Origin: Streptomyces sp. NRRL WC-3605 | Lineage (GTDB): Bacteria; Actinomycetota; Actinomycetes; Streptomycetales; Streptomycetaceae | DNA length: 64,000 nt | Assembly: GCF_001509795.1 (NCBI RefSeq) | Contig: NZ_LLZN01000035.1 | Coordinates: 1 to 64,000 of the forward strand | Direction: 5' to 3' | Shown: positions 38,874-42,135 of the stretch, one piece after another | Numbering within the stretch: position 1 is the stretch's first letter | Layout: every line of letters begins with the position of its first letter | The notes under the pieces: generated by a model | What the model was told of the DNA's origin: nothing | Databases searched by the model: none | Seen by the model: only the letters and a program-made list of their open reading frames with translations | Position numbers and translations under genes: made by a program

Positions 38874-39150
38874 CTTCGCGGGGGAGGAGGGGGCCTGACT
38901 CGCGGGGGAGGAGGTGCCCGGCGTCCGCTGGGAGGGCGGACGTGCGGCATGTGTGGAAGGTGCGCGAGGTGCCGAACGCGGTGGACGTGCGGGGGCGCCC
39001 ATCGCGTACGGGGTCGCTTCCGGGTCCACGTCCGGGTCCGGGTTCGCTTCTGGCTTCGGGTCCGCGTCCGGGGTCGCGTCTGGCTCCGGGGATCGGCTCG
39101 GGAGCCAGCCGGGGCCGGTCGGAGGTAGCCGGGCCCGGTCGGCCGGGAGC
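38874..39150. other. Intergenic region with a degenerate hexamer repeat
   Basis: The 277-bp gap after recX contains, at about 39010-39110, a run of 6-bp units of the TCCGGG / TCCGCG / TCTGGC type. No gene is supported; the frames across it encode low-complexity Ser/Gly or Arg/Thr peptides. Confidence 0.6.
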
Positions 39151-39585
39151 CTAGGAGGCGCCCTGGCTCTCCGAGCCCGGCGTCACCGGTAGCCCCGCCG
39201 CACGCCACGCCTGGAAGCCGCCGACCAGGTCGGTGGCCCGGTGCAGACCCAGGCGATGCAGCGACTCCGCCGCCAGGCTCGACGCGTAGCCCTCGTTGCA
39301 GAGCACCACGACCCGCAGGCCATGGCTCGTGGCCTCGGGGAGGCGATGGCTGCCCTGAGGGTCGAGCCGCCACTCCAGCTCGTTGCGTTCGACGACCAGC
39401 GCGCCCGGGATCAGACCGTCCCGTTCACGCAGGGCCGCGTACCGGATGTCGACCAGCAGGGCCTCACCGTTCTCGGCGGCCGCGTAGGCGTCCCGTGGCT
39501 CGATCCGCTCGTAGCCGGACCGCACCCGCTCCAGCAACGCGTCGATGCCGACGGGCCGTTCACCCCTGCTCTCCGTACCGCTCAT
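39151..39585 (-). CDS. Rhodanese-domain sulfurtransferase
   Basis: A 144-aa single-domain rhodanese. ENGEALLVDIR gives the family start, LIPGALVVERNELEW the middle, and the active-site loop is CNEGYASSLAA with the catalytic cysteine. GGFQAWRAAGLPV near the end is typical. It lies 27 nt downstream of the cysteine dioxygenase-like gene on the same strand, with GGAGGGG before its ATG. Co-expression suggests a role in handling persulfide or thiosulfate arising from cysteine breakdown. Confidence 0.88.
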   Translation of the reverse strand: MSGTESRGERPVGIDALLERVRSGYERIEPRDAYAAAENGEALLVDIRYAALRERDGLIPGALVVERNELEWRLDPQGSHRLPEATSHGLRVVVLCNEGYASSLAAESLHRLGLHRATDLVGGFQAWRAAGLPVTPGSESQGAS

Positions 39586-39612
39586 CGCCGTTCCCCTCCA
39601 CTCGGTGCTCGC

Positions 39613-40176
39613 TCACTGCCAGTCTTCGGGCTGCTCGACCTGTTCCAGGCGCAGCACCGGGCCGCTGCGGCTGAACCGGCGGATGAGCGGGAGAGGCGGG
39701 TAGTAGGCGTGCACGGAGATCGCGTGCCGCTCGGTCGACTCGTTGAGGACCTCGTGCACATGGTGACGGCCGAAGGCGCGGCCCTTGCCGGCGGACAGGC
39801 GGCGTGAGCGGTCCACGTCGTCGGCCAGTTCCAGGGTCTTCCAGCCGCCGGCCGGGAGCCGGACAGCGAGCGAGTGCTCGGTGAGTTCACCGGAAGCCGT
39901 GACGAACGCCCCGACCGACTCGGCGTGGTCGTGCCAGCCGGTGCCGGTACCGGGAGGCCAGCCGATCAGCCAGGCCTCGCTGCCACCGGGACCTTCGAGC
40001 CGTACCCAGGTGCGGCCCTCGGGGTCGAGCGGGAGCGAGGCGATCAACTCTGCGTCGGCGGCGGCGCGCCGGACGAAGTCGAGCAGGTCCGCCTGCGTCG
40101 GCGCGGAGGCAGAGGAGGAGGCGTCGGCCGCTGAGTTCTGCTGCGAGGAGGCAACGGCGGCAGGGGAGACAGACAA
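39613..40176 (-). CDS. Cysteine dioxygenase family cupin protein
   Basis: A 187-aa cupin of the cysteine dioxygenase type, which oxidises cysteine to cysteine sulfinate with non-haem iron. The metal site is visible as GWHDHAESVGAF (two His) and HHVHEVLNES (third His). HAISVHAYYPPLPLIRRF closes the cupin. The first ~35 residues are Ser/Ala-rich. The TTG at 40176 preceded by AGGACGG is my preferred start; a GTG at 40221 is possible. A 15-codon leader peptide ending in cysteine lies 87 nt upstream of this start. It is followed by a rhodanese gene in the same operon. Confidence 0.82.
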   Translation of the reverse strand: MSVSPAAVASSQQNSAADASSSASAPTQADLLDFVRRAAADAELIASLPLDPEGRTWVRLEGPGGSEAWLIGWPPGTGTGWHDHAESVGAFVTASGELTEHSLAVRLPAGGWKTLELADDVDRSRRLSAGKGRAFGRHHVHEVLNESTERHAISVHAYYPPLPLIRRFSRSGPVLRLEQVEQPEDWQ

Positions 40177-40263
40177 GGGGCACCGTCCTGAAGGGAGTTC
40201 GCGAAGAGCGCGCGGCAGCACGAGCGAAGGTCGCGGCGCACGCGGAGGGAGAAAGAGGCGAAG

Positions 40264-40311
40264 TCAGCAGGACGGACGACACACGCAGCCCGCATAGCGG
40301 ACGAGGTCCAT
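40264..40311 (-). CDS. Cysteine-containing leader peptide (15 aa) upstream of cysteine dioxygenase
   Basis: A tiny frame encoding MDLVRYAGCVCRPSC, with three cysteines in the last seven codons and the last one just before the TGA. GGAGGG sits 6-7 nt ahead of its ATG. A promoter (TTGACC-N17-TGTACT) lies 47 nt farther upstream. Actinobacterial leader peptides with C-terminal cysteines are known to sense cysteinyl-tRNA by ribosome stalling ahead of sulfur-metabolism genes. Here the controlled genes degrade rather than make cysteine. It is too short for routine gene callers. Confidence 0.7.
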   Translation of the reverse strand: MDLVRYAGCVCRPSC

Positions 40312-40357
40312 ATGGACCCTCCGCCACAGGCGCACACAGGTGTCGGTCACGATCGGG

Positions 40358-40386
40358 AGTACACCACGCGGGTCGGGACCGGTCAA
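40358..40386 (-). promoter_or_regulatory. Promoter of the cysteine leader-CDO-rhodanese operon
   Basis: On the minus strand, -35 TTGACC (40386-40381) and -10 TGTACT (40363-40358) have exactly 17 bp between them. Transcription should start near 40351, about 40 nt before the leader peptide. Confidence 0.65.
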
Positions 40387-40423
40387 CTCACCGTCACTAT
40401 GCGGACCCCACAGTGACGGTGAG
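40387..40423. repeat. Perfect 12-bp inverted repeat next to the CDO promoter
   Basis: CTCACCGTCACT (40387-40398) and AGTGACGGTGAG (40412-40423) flank a 13-nt spacer. It abuts the -35 element of the leader promoter and lies 48 nt beyond the stop codon of the upstream monooxygenase. It could be that gene's terminator or an operator. Confidence 0.8.
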
Positions 40424-40470
40424 TGCCGTTCCCGTGTACCAAGCCGGCACACGGGAGGGCGGGGGTGATC

Positions 40471-42135
40471 TCAGCGGGAAGCAGCTCCGGCCCGTTCCGC
40501 ACCGGCCTGTGTCCGTCCCCCGGCTTCTGCCCGGTCCTGGGCCTGGGGCGGTCCGCCCAGGGCGGCCTCGGCCGCCGCGTAGAGGTCAGCGGGTCGCACC
40601 CCGCCGAGGGCGGTCACGAGATGCCCGTCGGGGCGTACCAGCAGGACCGAGTGCGCGGCCGCGCCCGGATAGCTCTCCGCGACGAGCAACTCGGCCCGGT
40701 ACGGCAGCGCCGTCACCGCCGCCGCCAGGCGCGGCATGATGCCGGCGGTCGCCCAGTGCTTGCGGTCCCACACACCCGTGCCCGGCGCGATGAGGACGAC
40801 CAGCAGCGCACCGCGCCCGAGCCGGTCCCGGAGCCGGGCGAAGGAGCCGTCCTCGGCGGTGACCCGGACGTCCGCGACCGGAGCGCCGCGCGGCGTGTCG
40901 ACGGGGACCTCGCCCTCCAGCGGGCCCGGGGCGAGCGGTGAGTCGGCGTACGTCCCCGGCGCTCCGACGGTTCCCTGGCCGAGGTGCCCGTCCATCAGCA
41001 GGGCCTCATGACCGCGGGCCGACCCGGGCACGAGCGTGCGCAGACCGCTGCCGGAGCGCAGCAGCGGAAGTGCCTGGTCGGCGGCGCGCAGCCGGGCGGC
41101 GACGGCTGTGCGCCGCTCGGTCTGGTAGGAGTCGAGCAGCGCTTCGTGCGTGCCGTGGTGCCAGGCGGGTGCCAGTTTCCAGGCGAGGTTGTCGGCGTCG
41201 CGCAGCCCCTCGTCGAGGCCGTGGGTGCCGAGGGTGCCGAGGCAGTGGGCGGCGTCGCCCGCGAGGAAGACGCGGCCGGTGCGCCAGCGGCGGGCGAGCC
41301 GGTGGTGCACGGTGTGCACACCGGTGTCGAGCAGGTCGTACGGCGGTGTCGCCCCCTCGCACCAGCCCGCGAGGGTCTCCCGGATGTGCGTGACCAGCAG
41401 CTCGGGGGTGACGAGGTCCTTGCCCGGCGGCAGCAGCCAGTCCAGGCGCCACACGTCGTCGGGCAGTGGGCGTCCGGTGATCTCGCCGGCCGAGGGCGCG
41501 GACGTGCGCCAGGGTGGCATGCGGTGGAGCAACGCGTGGCCCTTCCAGGGGAGTTCCACGCGGAGTGCGGCCACGGCGTGCCGTTCGACGGCGGTGCGGC
41601 CGGGGAAGCGGATGTCCTGGAGCTTGCGGACGGTCGAGCGGGGGCCGTCGCAGCCGACCACGTAACTGCCGCGCCACCACGTGCCCTGGGGGCCGCGGGT
41701 GTGCACGGTGACGCCGGAGGGCTCCTGTTCCATCGCGTCCAGGCGGCTGTCCACGGCGAGCTTGACGAGGGGTTCGTGCGCGAGGGCGGTGCGCAGGGCG
41801 CCGGTCAGGGCGTGCTGGGCGATGTGCAGCGGGGCGGGGCTGGGGTGCCCTTCGGGCTGGGCGGAGGCGTCCTCGAAGGAGACCTCGCGTGTCACCTGCT
41901 TGCGCCGCATCGACCGCCATCCGGCCCATCGGGTGCCGAGCGCGCCGAGCGGGGTGCCGGTGAGGCGTTCCACGAGGGCGGTGGTGTCCTCCCGCAGGAC
42001 GACGGTGCGGGCGAGACGGGGTTCGTCCTTGCCGGGGCCCTCGTCGAGCACGACGCAGGGCACCTCCTGACGGGCCAGTGCCAGGGCGAGGGTGAGCCCG
42101 ACGGGCCCCGCGCCGACGATGATCACCGGGTCCAC
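40471..42135 (-). CDS. FAD-dependent aromatic monooxygenase
   Basis: A 554-aa flavoprotein hydroxylase of the PheA/UbiH class. The FAD site is IIVGAGPVGLTLALALA at the N-terminus, the second dinucleotide motif DG is in VVGCDGPRSTVRK, and the GD motif is RVFLAGDAAH. A C-terminal thioredoxin-like domain (LLVVLIAPGTGVWDRK, VLLVRPDGHLVTALGG) is typical of phenol-hydroxylase-like enzymes. The last ~25 residues are low complexity. The GTG at 42135 gives VDPVIIVGAG; the frame to 42225 has no similarity. The substrate is unknown. No catabolic or biosynthetic partner genes are adjacent. Confidence 0.87.
   Translation of the reverse strand: MDPVIIVGAGPVGLTLALALARQEVPCVVLDEGPGKDEPRLARTVVLREDTTALVERLTGTPLGALGTRWAGWRSMRRKQVTREVSFEDASAQPEGHPSPAPLHIAQHALTGALRTALAHEPLVKLAVDSRLDAMEQEPSGVTVHTRGPQGTWWRGSYVVGCDGPRSTVRKLQDIRFPGRTAVERHAVAALRVELPWKGHALLHRMPPWRTSAPSAGEITGRPLPDDVWRLDWLLPPGKDLVTPELLVTHIRETLAGWCEGATPPYDLLDTGVHTVHHRLARRWRTGRVFLAGDAAHCLGTLGTHGLDEGLRDADNLAWKLAPAWHHGTHEALLDSYQTERRTAVAARLRAADQALPLLRSGSGLRTLVPGSARGHEALLMDGHLGQGTVGAPGTYADSPLAPGPLEGEVPVDTPRGAPVADVRVTAEDGSFARLRDRLGRGALLVVLIAPGTGVWDRKHWATAGIMPRLAAAVTALPYRAELLVAESYPGAAAHSVLLVRPDGHLVTALGGVRPADLYAAAEAALGGPPQAQDRAEAGGRTQAGAERAGAASR

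Follow-up and report, generated by a model that had tools for sequence, protein, structure and literature searches.

A conserved cysteine-codon leader complementary to the ribosome-binding site of a Streptomyces cysteine dioxygenase gene: a possible cysteine checkpoint in translation

The cysteine dioxygenase gene of Streptomyces sp. NRRL WC-3605 is preceded by a short reading frame with conserved cysteine codons, and the last codons of this frame (CCG-UCC-UG) are the exact complement of the ribosome-binding site of the dioxygenase, CAGGACGG. We propose, with a probability of about one half, that region 40350-40183 of the window (the whole 64,000 nt stretch of DNA analysed) is a translation-control element of the dioxygenase mRNA and acts as a cysteine checkpoint, with the dioxygenase being translated when Cys-tRNA is plentiful, which agrees with the need for this enzyme when cysteine is abundant. 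An earlier note on this DNA described a 15-codon, cysteine-ended leader and suggested that it acts with a logic opposite to that of leaders of sulfur-assimilation genes. Its observation was partly confirmed and its interpretation partly supported: a conserved cysteine leader is present and an arm complementary to the site, downstream of Cys22, offers a concrete route for such control, with the sign of the response to cysteine being one that we only infer. The pairing of this arm with the ribosome-binding site was absent from that account. The cysteine dioxygenase-rhodanese operon named in the note was recovered by family searches:

39613..40176, minus strand: cysteine dioxygenase (CDO_I), start codon TTG at 40176 (PF05995, E 1.2e-50)
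39151..39585, minus strand: rhodanese-like protein, second gene (PF00581, E 5.6e-13)

The dioxygenase protein as translated contains no cysteines. A second, distant cysteine dioxygenase-like gene is present in the same genome (G000:C38:22323-22691, L002; 38% identity, E 7e-11).

We compared 180 cysteine dioxygenase (cdo) regions (the window and L003-L181), and an in-frame leader peptide was found by one pattern in 173 of these, giving 163 distinct sequences, which are related to each other, so that counts over these loci are not independent events. The seven remaining regions comprise L135, L138, L140 and L141 with a divergent leader, L041 and L127 which are cut by contig ends, and L139, where no leader was seen and the 5' part of the dioxygenase gene appears disrupted. 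The promoter and leader in the window are:

40381..40386, minus strand: -35 hexamer TTGACC, from the sequence, with TTGAC conserved upstream of the leader start
40358..40363, minus strand: -10 hexamer TGTACT, separated by 7 nt from the start codon of the leader, from comparison of -10 contexts
40264..40350, minus strand: leader ORF of 28 codons, VTDTCVRLWRRVHMDLVRYAGCVCRPSC-stop, start codon GTG, probably leaderless (conservation, NF042934 above cut-off)

The promoter-like pair TTGACC-N17-TGTACT was read directly from the minus strand (40386-40358), and TTGAC is located at -36, -37 or -35 from the leader start codon in 152 of the 163 distinct loci; a strict sigma-70 scan, which requires A as the second base of its second hexamer, listed no promoter at TTGACC/TGTACT. 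The same minus-strand reading agreed with the layout given in the earlier note, with GGAGGG followed by a frame MDLVRYAGCVCRPSC-stop at 40311-40264 and then 87 nt to the dioxygenase start. However, this 15-codon frame from ATG 40311 is the second half of the conserved frame, which has 28 codons and starts at GTG 40350. The leader start codon (GTG in 107 loci, ATG in 56) lies 8 codons before an invariant Trp in 161/163 loci, and the remaining two differ in length by whole codons. There were no stops inside the leader frame in any of the 163 loci, with stops breaking the +1 frame in 162 of them and the +2 frame in 17, and residues W9, R10, V12, H13, D15, L16, R18 and G21 were identical in all of them. 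Conservation of the leader in these sequences is far beyond chance.

Translation from ATG 40311, with GGAGGG as ribosome-binding site, was rejected as general start because codon 14 is CTG (15 loci) or CTC (5 loci) in 20/163, with ATG in 133 and GTG in 10; initiation at codon 14 is possible in the loci without CTG or CTC there. We infer that initiation of the leader is probably leaderless, with GTG 40350 adjoining the -10 hexamer. The leader was matched by the NCBIfam model NF042934 (cis_reg_atten, putative leader peptide) at 34.1 bits versus a cut-off of 27 (35.5 bits in a whole-genome search), and the match begins 8 residues before the ATG of the earlier note, where the description of the leader as invisible to gene callers was too strong. 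The leader retains several unusual codons: Arg11 is AGG, the codon making GGAGGG inside the ORF, in 150/163 loci (AGG is 2% of Arg codons in cdo genes), and His13 is CAT in 137, Tyr19 is TAT in 95 and Cys24 is TGT in 163 (n = 163; window 40320-40279, minus strand).

The conserved in-frame cysteine codons that mark a cysteine-responsive leader attenuator were found at two positions, named here by their distance from the invariant Asp15 (D+7 and D+9):

40285..40287, minus strand: Cys22 codon TGC (D+7), Cys in 161/163 loci, and in the mean of the simulation the last A-site position with the site still closed
40279..40281, minus strand: Cys24 codon TGT (D+9), Cys in 163/163 loci and always TGT, homologous to the family cysteine

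These are cysteines 9 and 11 of the shorter frame. The earlier note had expected terminal Cys codons to be kept in an alignment of upstream regions across Streptomyces; the frame is open throughout and these two cysteines are the conserved ones, and the terminal cysteine, on which the note put weight, is less well conserved. Cys28 is conserved in 147/163 loci and replaced or missing in 16/163, and in L070 the terminal TGC has become a TGA stop with the pairing letters CCGTCCTG / CCGTCCTGA retained, and the terminal cysteine was therefore rejected as the key codon. In six ordinary genes of the window, 2 of the 11 Cys codons are TGT.

The end of the leader and the dioxygenase ribosome-binding site form the two arms of the proposed control element:

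40268..40275, minus strand: 5' arm CCGUCCUG, codons Pro26-Ser27-Cys28, complementary to the ribosome-binding site (predicted fold and comparison)
40183..40190, minus strand: dioxygenase ribosome-binding site CAGGACGG, 3' arm, identical in 159/163 loci

The commonest octamer at the site of the next gene was found in 68/115 loci (using a cruder start finder), versus the 159/163 of the dioxygenase site. Complementarity kept in relatives, as in translation attenuation by a hidden site, was evident, with a contiguous arm:site helix of 8 pairs possible in 127/163 loci and of at least 6 pairs in 146/163; among other 12-nt windows of the same leaders, at least 6 pairs were possible in 229/3589 and 8 pairs in 0/3589. 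Fewer than 6 contiguous pairs are available in 17/163 loci, and fewer than 4 pairs are expected in 27/160. The codons of the arm are biased, as Pro26 is CCG in 138/149 (43% expected) and Ser27 is TCC in 156/160 (46% expected from cdo genes), and Arg25 directly before the arm varies (CGC, CGT, CGA, CGG). When the last four codons of 80 loci were replaced by random synonymous ones, the mean fold weakened from -37.05 (natural) to -32.82 kcal/mol, with the natural leader ends being in the best tenth of their own recodings in just 27/80. Differences seen by eye outside Streptomyces include CGGGACGG in L241 and L242 from a sister genus, where a U-G pair replaces U-A, and CCCGUCCG opposite CGGACGGG in L140 from another family, with a U-A to G-C difference.

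As a separate observation, L014, L027, L031, L034, L036, L046 and relatives have CAGGACC or CAGGATC just before TCAGGACGG, a duplication-like second copy of the first letters of the site.

In the fold of minimum energy predicted for the window RNA, CCGUCCUG (codons 26-28) is paired with CAGGACGG, and UUCGC after the leader stop with GCGAA before the site. Besides the two arms, the structural parts are:

40295..40326, minus strand: hairpin inside the leader ORF (UGGCGGAGGGUCC / GGACC..UCCGCUA), paired in 99.7% of cells, 7/12 pairs invariant
40258..40262, minus strand: UUCGC, 5' side of the second helix, just past the leader stop, pairing in 65% of cells (alignment A1)
40198..40202, minus strand: GCGAA, 3' side of the second helix (predicted fold)

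The fold z-score was -2.7 for the whole 191 nt and -1.1 for a shorter piece. In the 55 aligned Streptomyces sequences (alignment A1) 95.2% of cells allow the pairs of the arm:site helix, and none of its 8 pairs shows double-sided changes, with the arm varying without compensation; covariation therefore gives no proof of this helix. RNAalifold did not choose the arm:site helix on the same alignment, where 3 site nucleotides were instead joined to the 5' end of the leader. Between clades this alignment is shifted by one base at the second helix. Exchanging 3' sides among loci weakened the pairing of the second helix (-5.97, sd 0.09, lowest -6.23 of 200, versus -6.24 observed) and clearly weakened that of the inner hairpin (-16.44, sd 0.21, versus -19.36 observed). 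As the loci are related, these permutations are taken with caution as covariation evidence for the inner part. The variable GC-rich hairpin may assist closing of the arm:site helix, together with UUCGC/GCGAA, according to the predicted folds. No terminator-like sites were found in window 39000-40600, and thus not the intrinsic terminator after the leader that defines a classical transcription attenuator, and an Rfam search gave no match in this interval.

In the checkpoint that we propose, a ribosome would initiate at the extreme 5' end of the mRNA (GTG 40350) and read the 28-codon leader. On an mRNA lacking a leader ribosome, CCGUCCUG would pair with CAGGACGG, aided by UUCGC/GCGAA and the GC-rich hairpin, and the dioxygenase would hardly be translated. 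When Cys-tRNA is scarce, a ribosome waiting at codon 22 would halt just short of the arm with the hairpin intact, and the site would therefore stay shut; when Cys-tRNA is charged, the ribosome would pass codons 22 and 24, reach the stop and cover the arm, making the site easier to open, so that production of the cysteine-destroying enzyme would follow an ample supply of charged Cys-tRNA. Of this scheme, the frame, the promoter spacing, the cysteine codons and the complementarity of arm and site come from comparison of the loci, and the helix with its dependence on ribosome position comes from predicted folds.

Dependence on ribosome position was predicted by computing the free energy of site opening while a stretch from 13 nt upstream to 15 nt downstream of the P-site start was kept unpaired. 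We took every second of the 158 standard-geometry loci (79) and left out four with a poor site match or a long gap, leaving 75 loci. The mean opening cost was 11.2 kcal/mol with no ribosome and 8.9-9.1 with the ribosome at codons 18-20; it rose from 9.6 at codon 21 to 10.6 when the A site held Cys22, fell to 7.4 at codon 23 and to 6.8 at Cys24, and reached 4.9 at the stop. The site was costlier to open with the ribosome at Cys22 than at Cys24 in 66/75 loci and no harder in 9/75, with the difference being at least 1 kcal/mol in 62/75 and at least 2 in 55/75, and Cys22 was the highest among codons 21-23 in 48/75. The profile of the window itself is ragged (12.0 without ribosome, 7.6-9.0 at codons 18-20, 7.4 at codon 21, 9.4 at Cys22, 6.8 at codon 23, 6.2 at Cys24, 8.2 at codon 25 and 4.6 at the stop). 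Over 160 loci the probability of the site being unpaired was 0.05 with no ribosome, 0.03-0.04 at Cys22, 0.15-0.20 at Cys24 and 0.24-0.25 at the stop, and since it reaches just this last value the predicted open state is only partial. In the sister genus the predicted switch is strong, with costs for no ribosome, Cys22, Cys24 and stop of 13.7, 15.4, 7.4 and 6.8 in L241, and of 13.9, 15.1, 6.1 and 6.5 in L242. Based on these modelled opening-cost profiles, the site in Streptomyces and the sister genus would typically be shut until Cys22 is decoded, and then loosen as the ribosome advances.

Further away the pattern differs. In family f3, L140 has a weak switch (11.5 to 8.6), and in L141, with Cys at D+7, the site is never strongly closed (6.3, 5.1, 5.3 and 3.8). 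Using the patterns applied, 7 of 14 loci of genus g2 have a one-Cys leader and 7 have none; 6 of the 7 with a leader lack a comparable switch, and L230 shows another pattern (9.5 with no ribosome, 5.5 at D+7, 4.8 at D+9 and 9.2 at the stop). By the motif pattern used, no leader was found at seven dioxygenase loci (L221-L227; E <= 1e-20, 296 sampled genomes) that belong to other families of the class, nor at the truncated Streptomyces dioxygenase gene L220.

The source genome contains 8 recognisable members of NF042934 down to E 0.017, of which 6 are over the cut-off. They precede genes that are sulfite/nitrite-reductase-like, thiosulfate sulfurtransferase-like, CysO/MoaD-like, sulfonate-binding-protein-like, an ABC permease, GST-like, ROK-like and cdo, with all names except cdo being assigned by reading the loci and not by family searches. 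We collected 38 family loci from six Streptomyces (the 8 of the source genome and 30 of the 34 matches listed), 6 being cdo and 32 others. Taking the pattern as observed, with no formal definition, Cys is present nine residues after Asp in 163/163 cdo leaders and in 25 of 27 parsed non-cdo leaders, where it is encoded by TGT, with the other two having a stop there. At D+7 these 27 leaders have Ala (26) or Met (1) and never Cys, and five unparsed sulfurtransferase leaders of the form VDLCRVAAMLC have, by eye, Met at D+7 and Cys at D+9. Since Cys at D+7 is found in 0/32 of the other leaders and in 161/163 cdo leaders, Cys24 is the family cysteine, and Cys22 an addition of the dioxygenase leader. 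The cdo leader thus shares with its family the DLxR-x5-C motif and the conserved UGU cysteine at D+9, and the placement of members before sulfur-gene-like genes of the same genome (by reading), but differs in the extra Cys at D+7, the catabolic target and a site paired with the leader end. For six of the eight source-genome leaders the unpaired probability of the downstream site was 0.07 (cdo), 0.17 (ROK-like) and 0.39-0.47 (the other four), and in this genome the leaders of the sulfite-reductase-like, sulfurtransferase-like, CysO-like and GST-like genes did not show the hidden-site architecture. The two parsed leaders with a stop at D+9 (among L182-L189 and L243-L272) precede a GST-like gene; their stop is UGA, and a Cys lies four codons before it.

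The identity of the family cysteine speaks against the checkpoint, as it is Cys24 and not Cys22, and when cysteine runs short a ribosome stalled at Cys24 would make the site easier to open. The same hairpin could then work with the opposite sign: with little Cys-tRNA the ribosome would stall at Cys24, whose codon UGU is rare, or at Cys28, the arm would be covered, and the dioxygenase would be made when cysteine is scarce. This is favoured by the invariance of Cys24 and its UGU codon, by its homologues in the other leaders being all UGU, by the scarcity of UGU in the six window genes, and by the mean opening cost having already dropped to 6.8 with Cys24 in the A site. However, the ribosome meets Cys22 first, which would hold it in the closed state in most loci, and such a response would run against the physiology of an enzyme that destroys cysteine, and we consider this version unlikely. 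For the checkpoint with Cys22 as the controlling codon, a wider extension can be put forward tentatively, in which one leader family governs both the building and the breakdown of cysteine in Streptomyces with opposite sign, set by the Cys at D+7 and an anti-site arm placed exactly one ribosome length after it. If the leader does gate the dioxygenase, the geometry of this control would be readable from sequence and the frozen dioxygenase site across Streptomyces would be explained; the UGU codon common to the NF042934 family is a clue to how such leaders sense cysteine.

Leader peptides can also respond to the free amino acid, as in the tna operon, a catabolic operon switched on by its own amino acid via TnaC. 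An arrest peptide of this kind would halt the ribosome near codons 24-29 when cysteine is high and keep the site open, and might also mask a Rho entry site beyond the stop codon, where the sequence is rich in pyrimidines (C makes up 48% and T 27% of the next 25 nt). The eight invariant residues from W9 to G21, the recurrence of an RRxHxDLxR-like motif in other leaders with different codons, and the lack of an intrinsic terminator are consistent with this. However, much of the conserved segment also forms the conserved hairpin, and amino acid conservation is therefore inseparable from RNA constraint within the cdo leaders; we regard arrest as a rather improbable explanation. The likeness of TnaC to the proposed cdo control lies in a catabolic operon, a leader peptide and the operon's own amino acid, and the difference in TnaC acting by nascent-chain arrest and Rho, whereas the proposed cdo control would act through passage of the leader ribosome. 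In erm-type translation attenuation, the position of the leader ribosome decides whether the downstream ribosome-binding site is hidden; for the cdo leader the signal would be an amino acid and not an antibiotic, and the predicted open state follows passage and not a stall.

Plain translational coupling, where translation of the leader opens the site without any cysteine sensing and the Cys codons are family inheritance, could account for arm and site being largely kept even without the terminal Cys (such as in L070 and in PSH and PSR forms), but it fits poorly with Cys22 and Cys24 almost never changing when several neighbouring codons do, and seems improbable. That the conserved block is mainly a DNA element with an incidental peptide, as the 14-nt palindrome GGTCCATATGGACC inside the ORF (a potential operator) and a 13-nt inverted repeat adjoining the -35 might suggest, is very improbable given the frame-keeping length changes, the ATG/GTG alternation at the start, the absence of stops, a varying palindrome centre (CATATG, CATGTG, CACATG, CATCTG) and an upstream repeat of at least 8 in only 75/162 loci.

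This inverted repeat (ACTCACCGTCACT / AGTGACGGTGAGT; 40424-40386, minus strand) abuts the -35 hexamer, and close relatives have comparable repeats in which the changes match (CCGTCAC or CTGTCAC). Some repeat of at least 8 was detected upstream of the -35 in the 75/162 loci mentioned versus 16 after one shuffle of each, and it may be either an operator or the terminator of the upstream FAD monooxygenase gene.

Expression of cdo genes has been reported for feather-degrading streptomycetes, with the mRNA of two cdo genes of Streptomyces sp. SCUT-3 being up 50-fold (cdo1) and 8-fold in feather medium in the portion of PMC7181669 covered, and two CdoI genes of S. shaoguanensis being low up to 48 h and raised at 96 h of feather culture in that of PMC12763843. 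We count the rise of SCUT-3 cdo1 in favour of the checkpoint, as a change at mRNA level in what is possibly another gene than the dioxygenase studied here; neither data set bears directly on the leader.

Both cysteine leaders as a concept and a profile matching this leader peptide are known already, since leaders were predicted earlier and the NF042934 profile exists. Cysteine leaders before cys and cbs operons of other actinobacteria were predicted by Seliverstov 2005 (PMC1262725), and in the parts of that paper covered these resemble the cdo leader as short ORFs with Cys codons near the stop and without terminators, and differ in belonging to Mycobacterium, Propionibacterium and Bifidobacterium and to biosynthetic operons; neither a Streptomyces cysteine leader nor a hidden ribosome-binding site was met in those parts. 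The polycysteine leaderless short ORFs of mycobacteria (Ms5788A type; Canestrari 2020) mediate, according to citing papers, cysteine-responsive attenuation of downstream translation. As far as described there they are likewise leaderless ORFs with Cys codons, but the cdo leader lacks a contiguous Cys run and has a catabolic target, and its score with the model of that type (NF042933) was 15.8 versus the 45 bits required. The cysteine leaders compared from the literature precede uptake or synthesis genes, and a leader gating cysteine destruction would, if true, combine the same sensor with the opposite output. No description of a Streptomyces cdo leader was found among the literature matches listed, a coverage that most subscription papers fall outside, and three features are new within the literature searched: the predicted pairing of the leader end with the dioxygenase site, the additional Cys, and a catabolic gene as target. 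Eight leaders are listed for S. lividans in the part of PMC8079986 covered, none of them at cdo. In Table 4 of that source the "methionine-dependent" leader metL before metNIQ, MSTTSDRTPATEATTTPGARCMCRRMCAF, has CMC and MC near its end, and it might be a cysteine leader.
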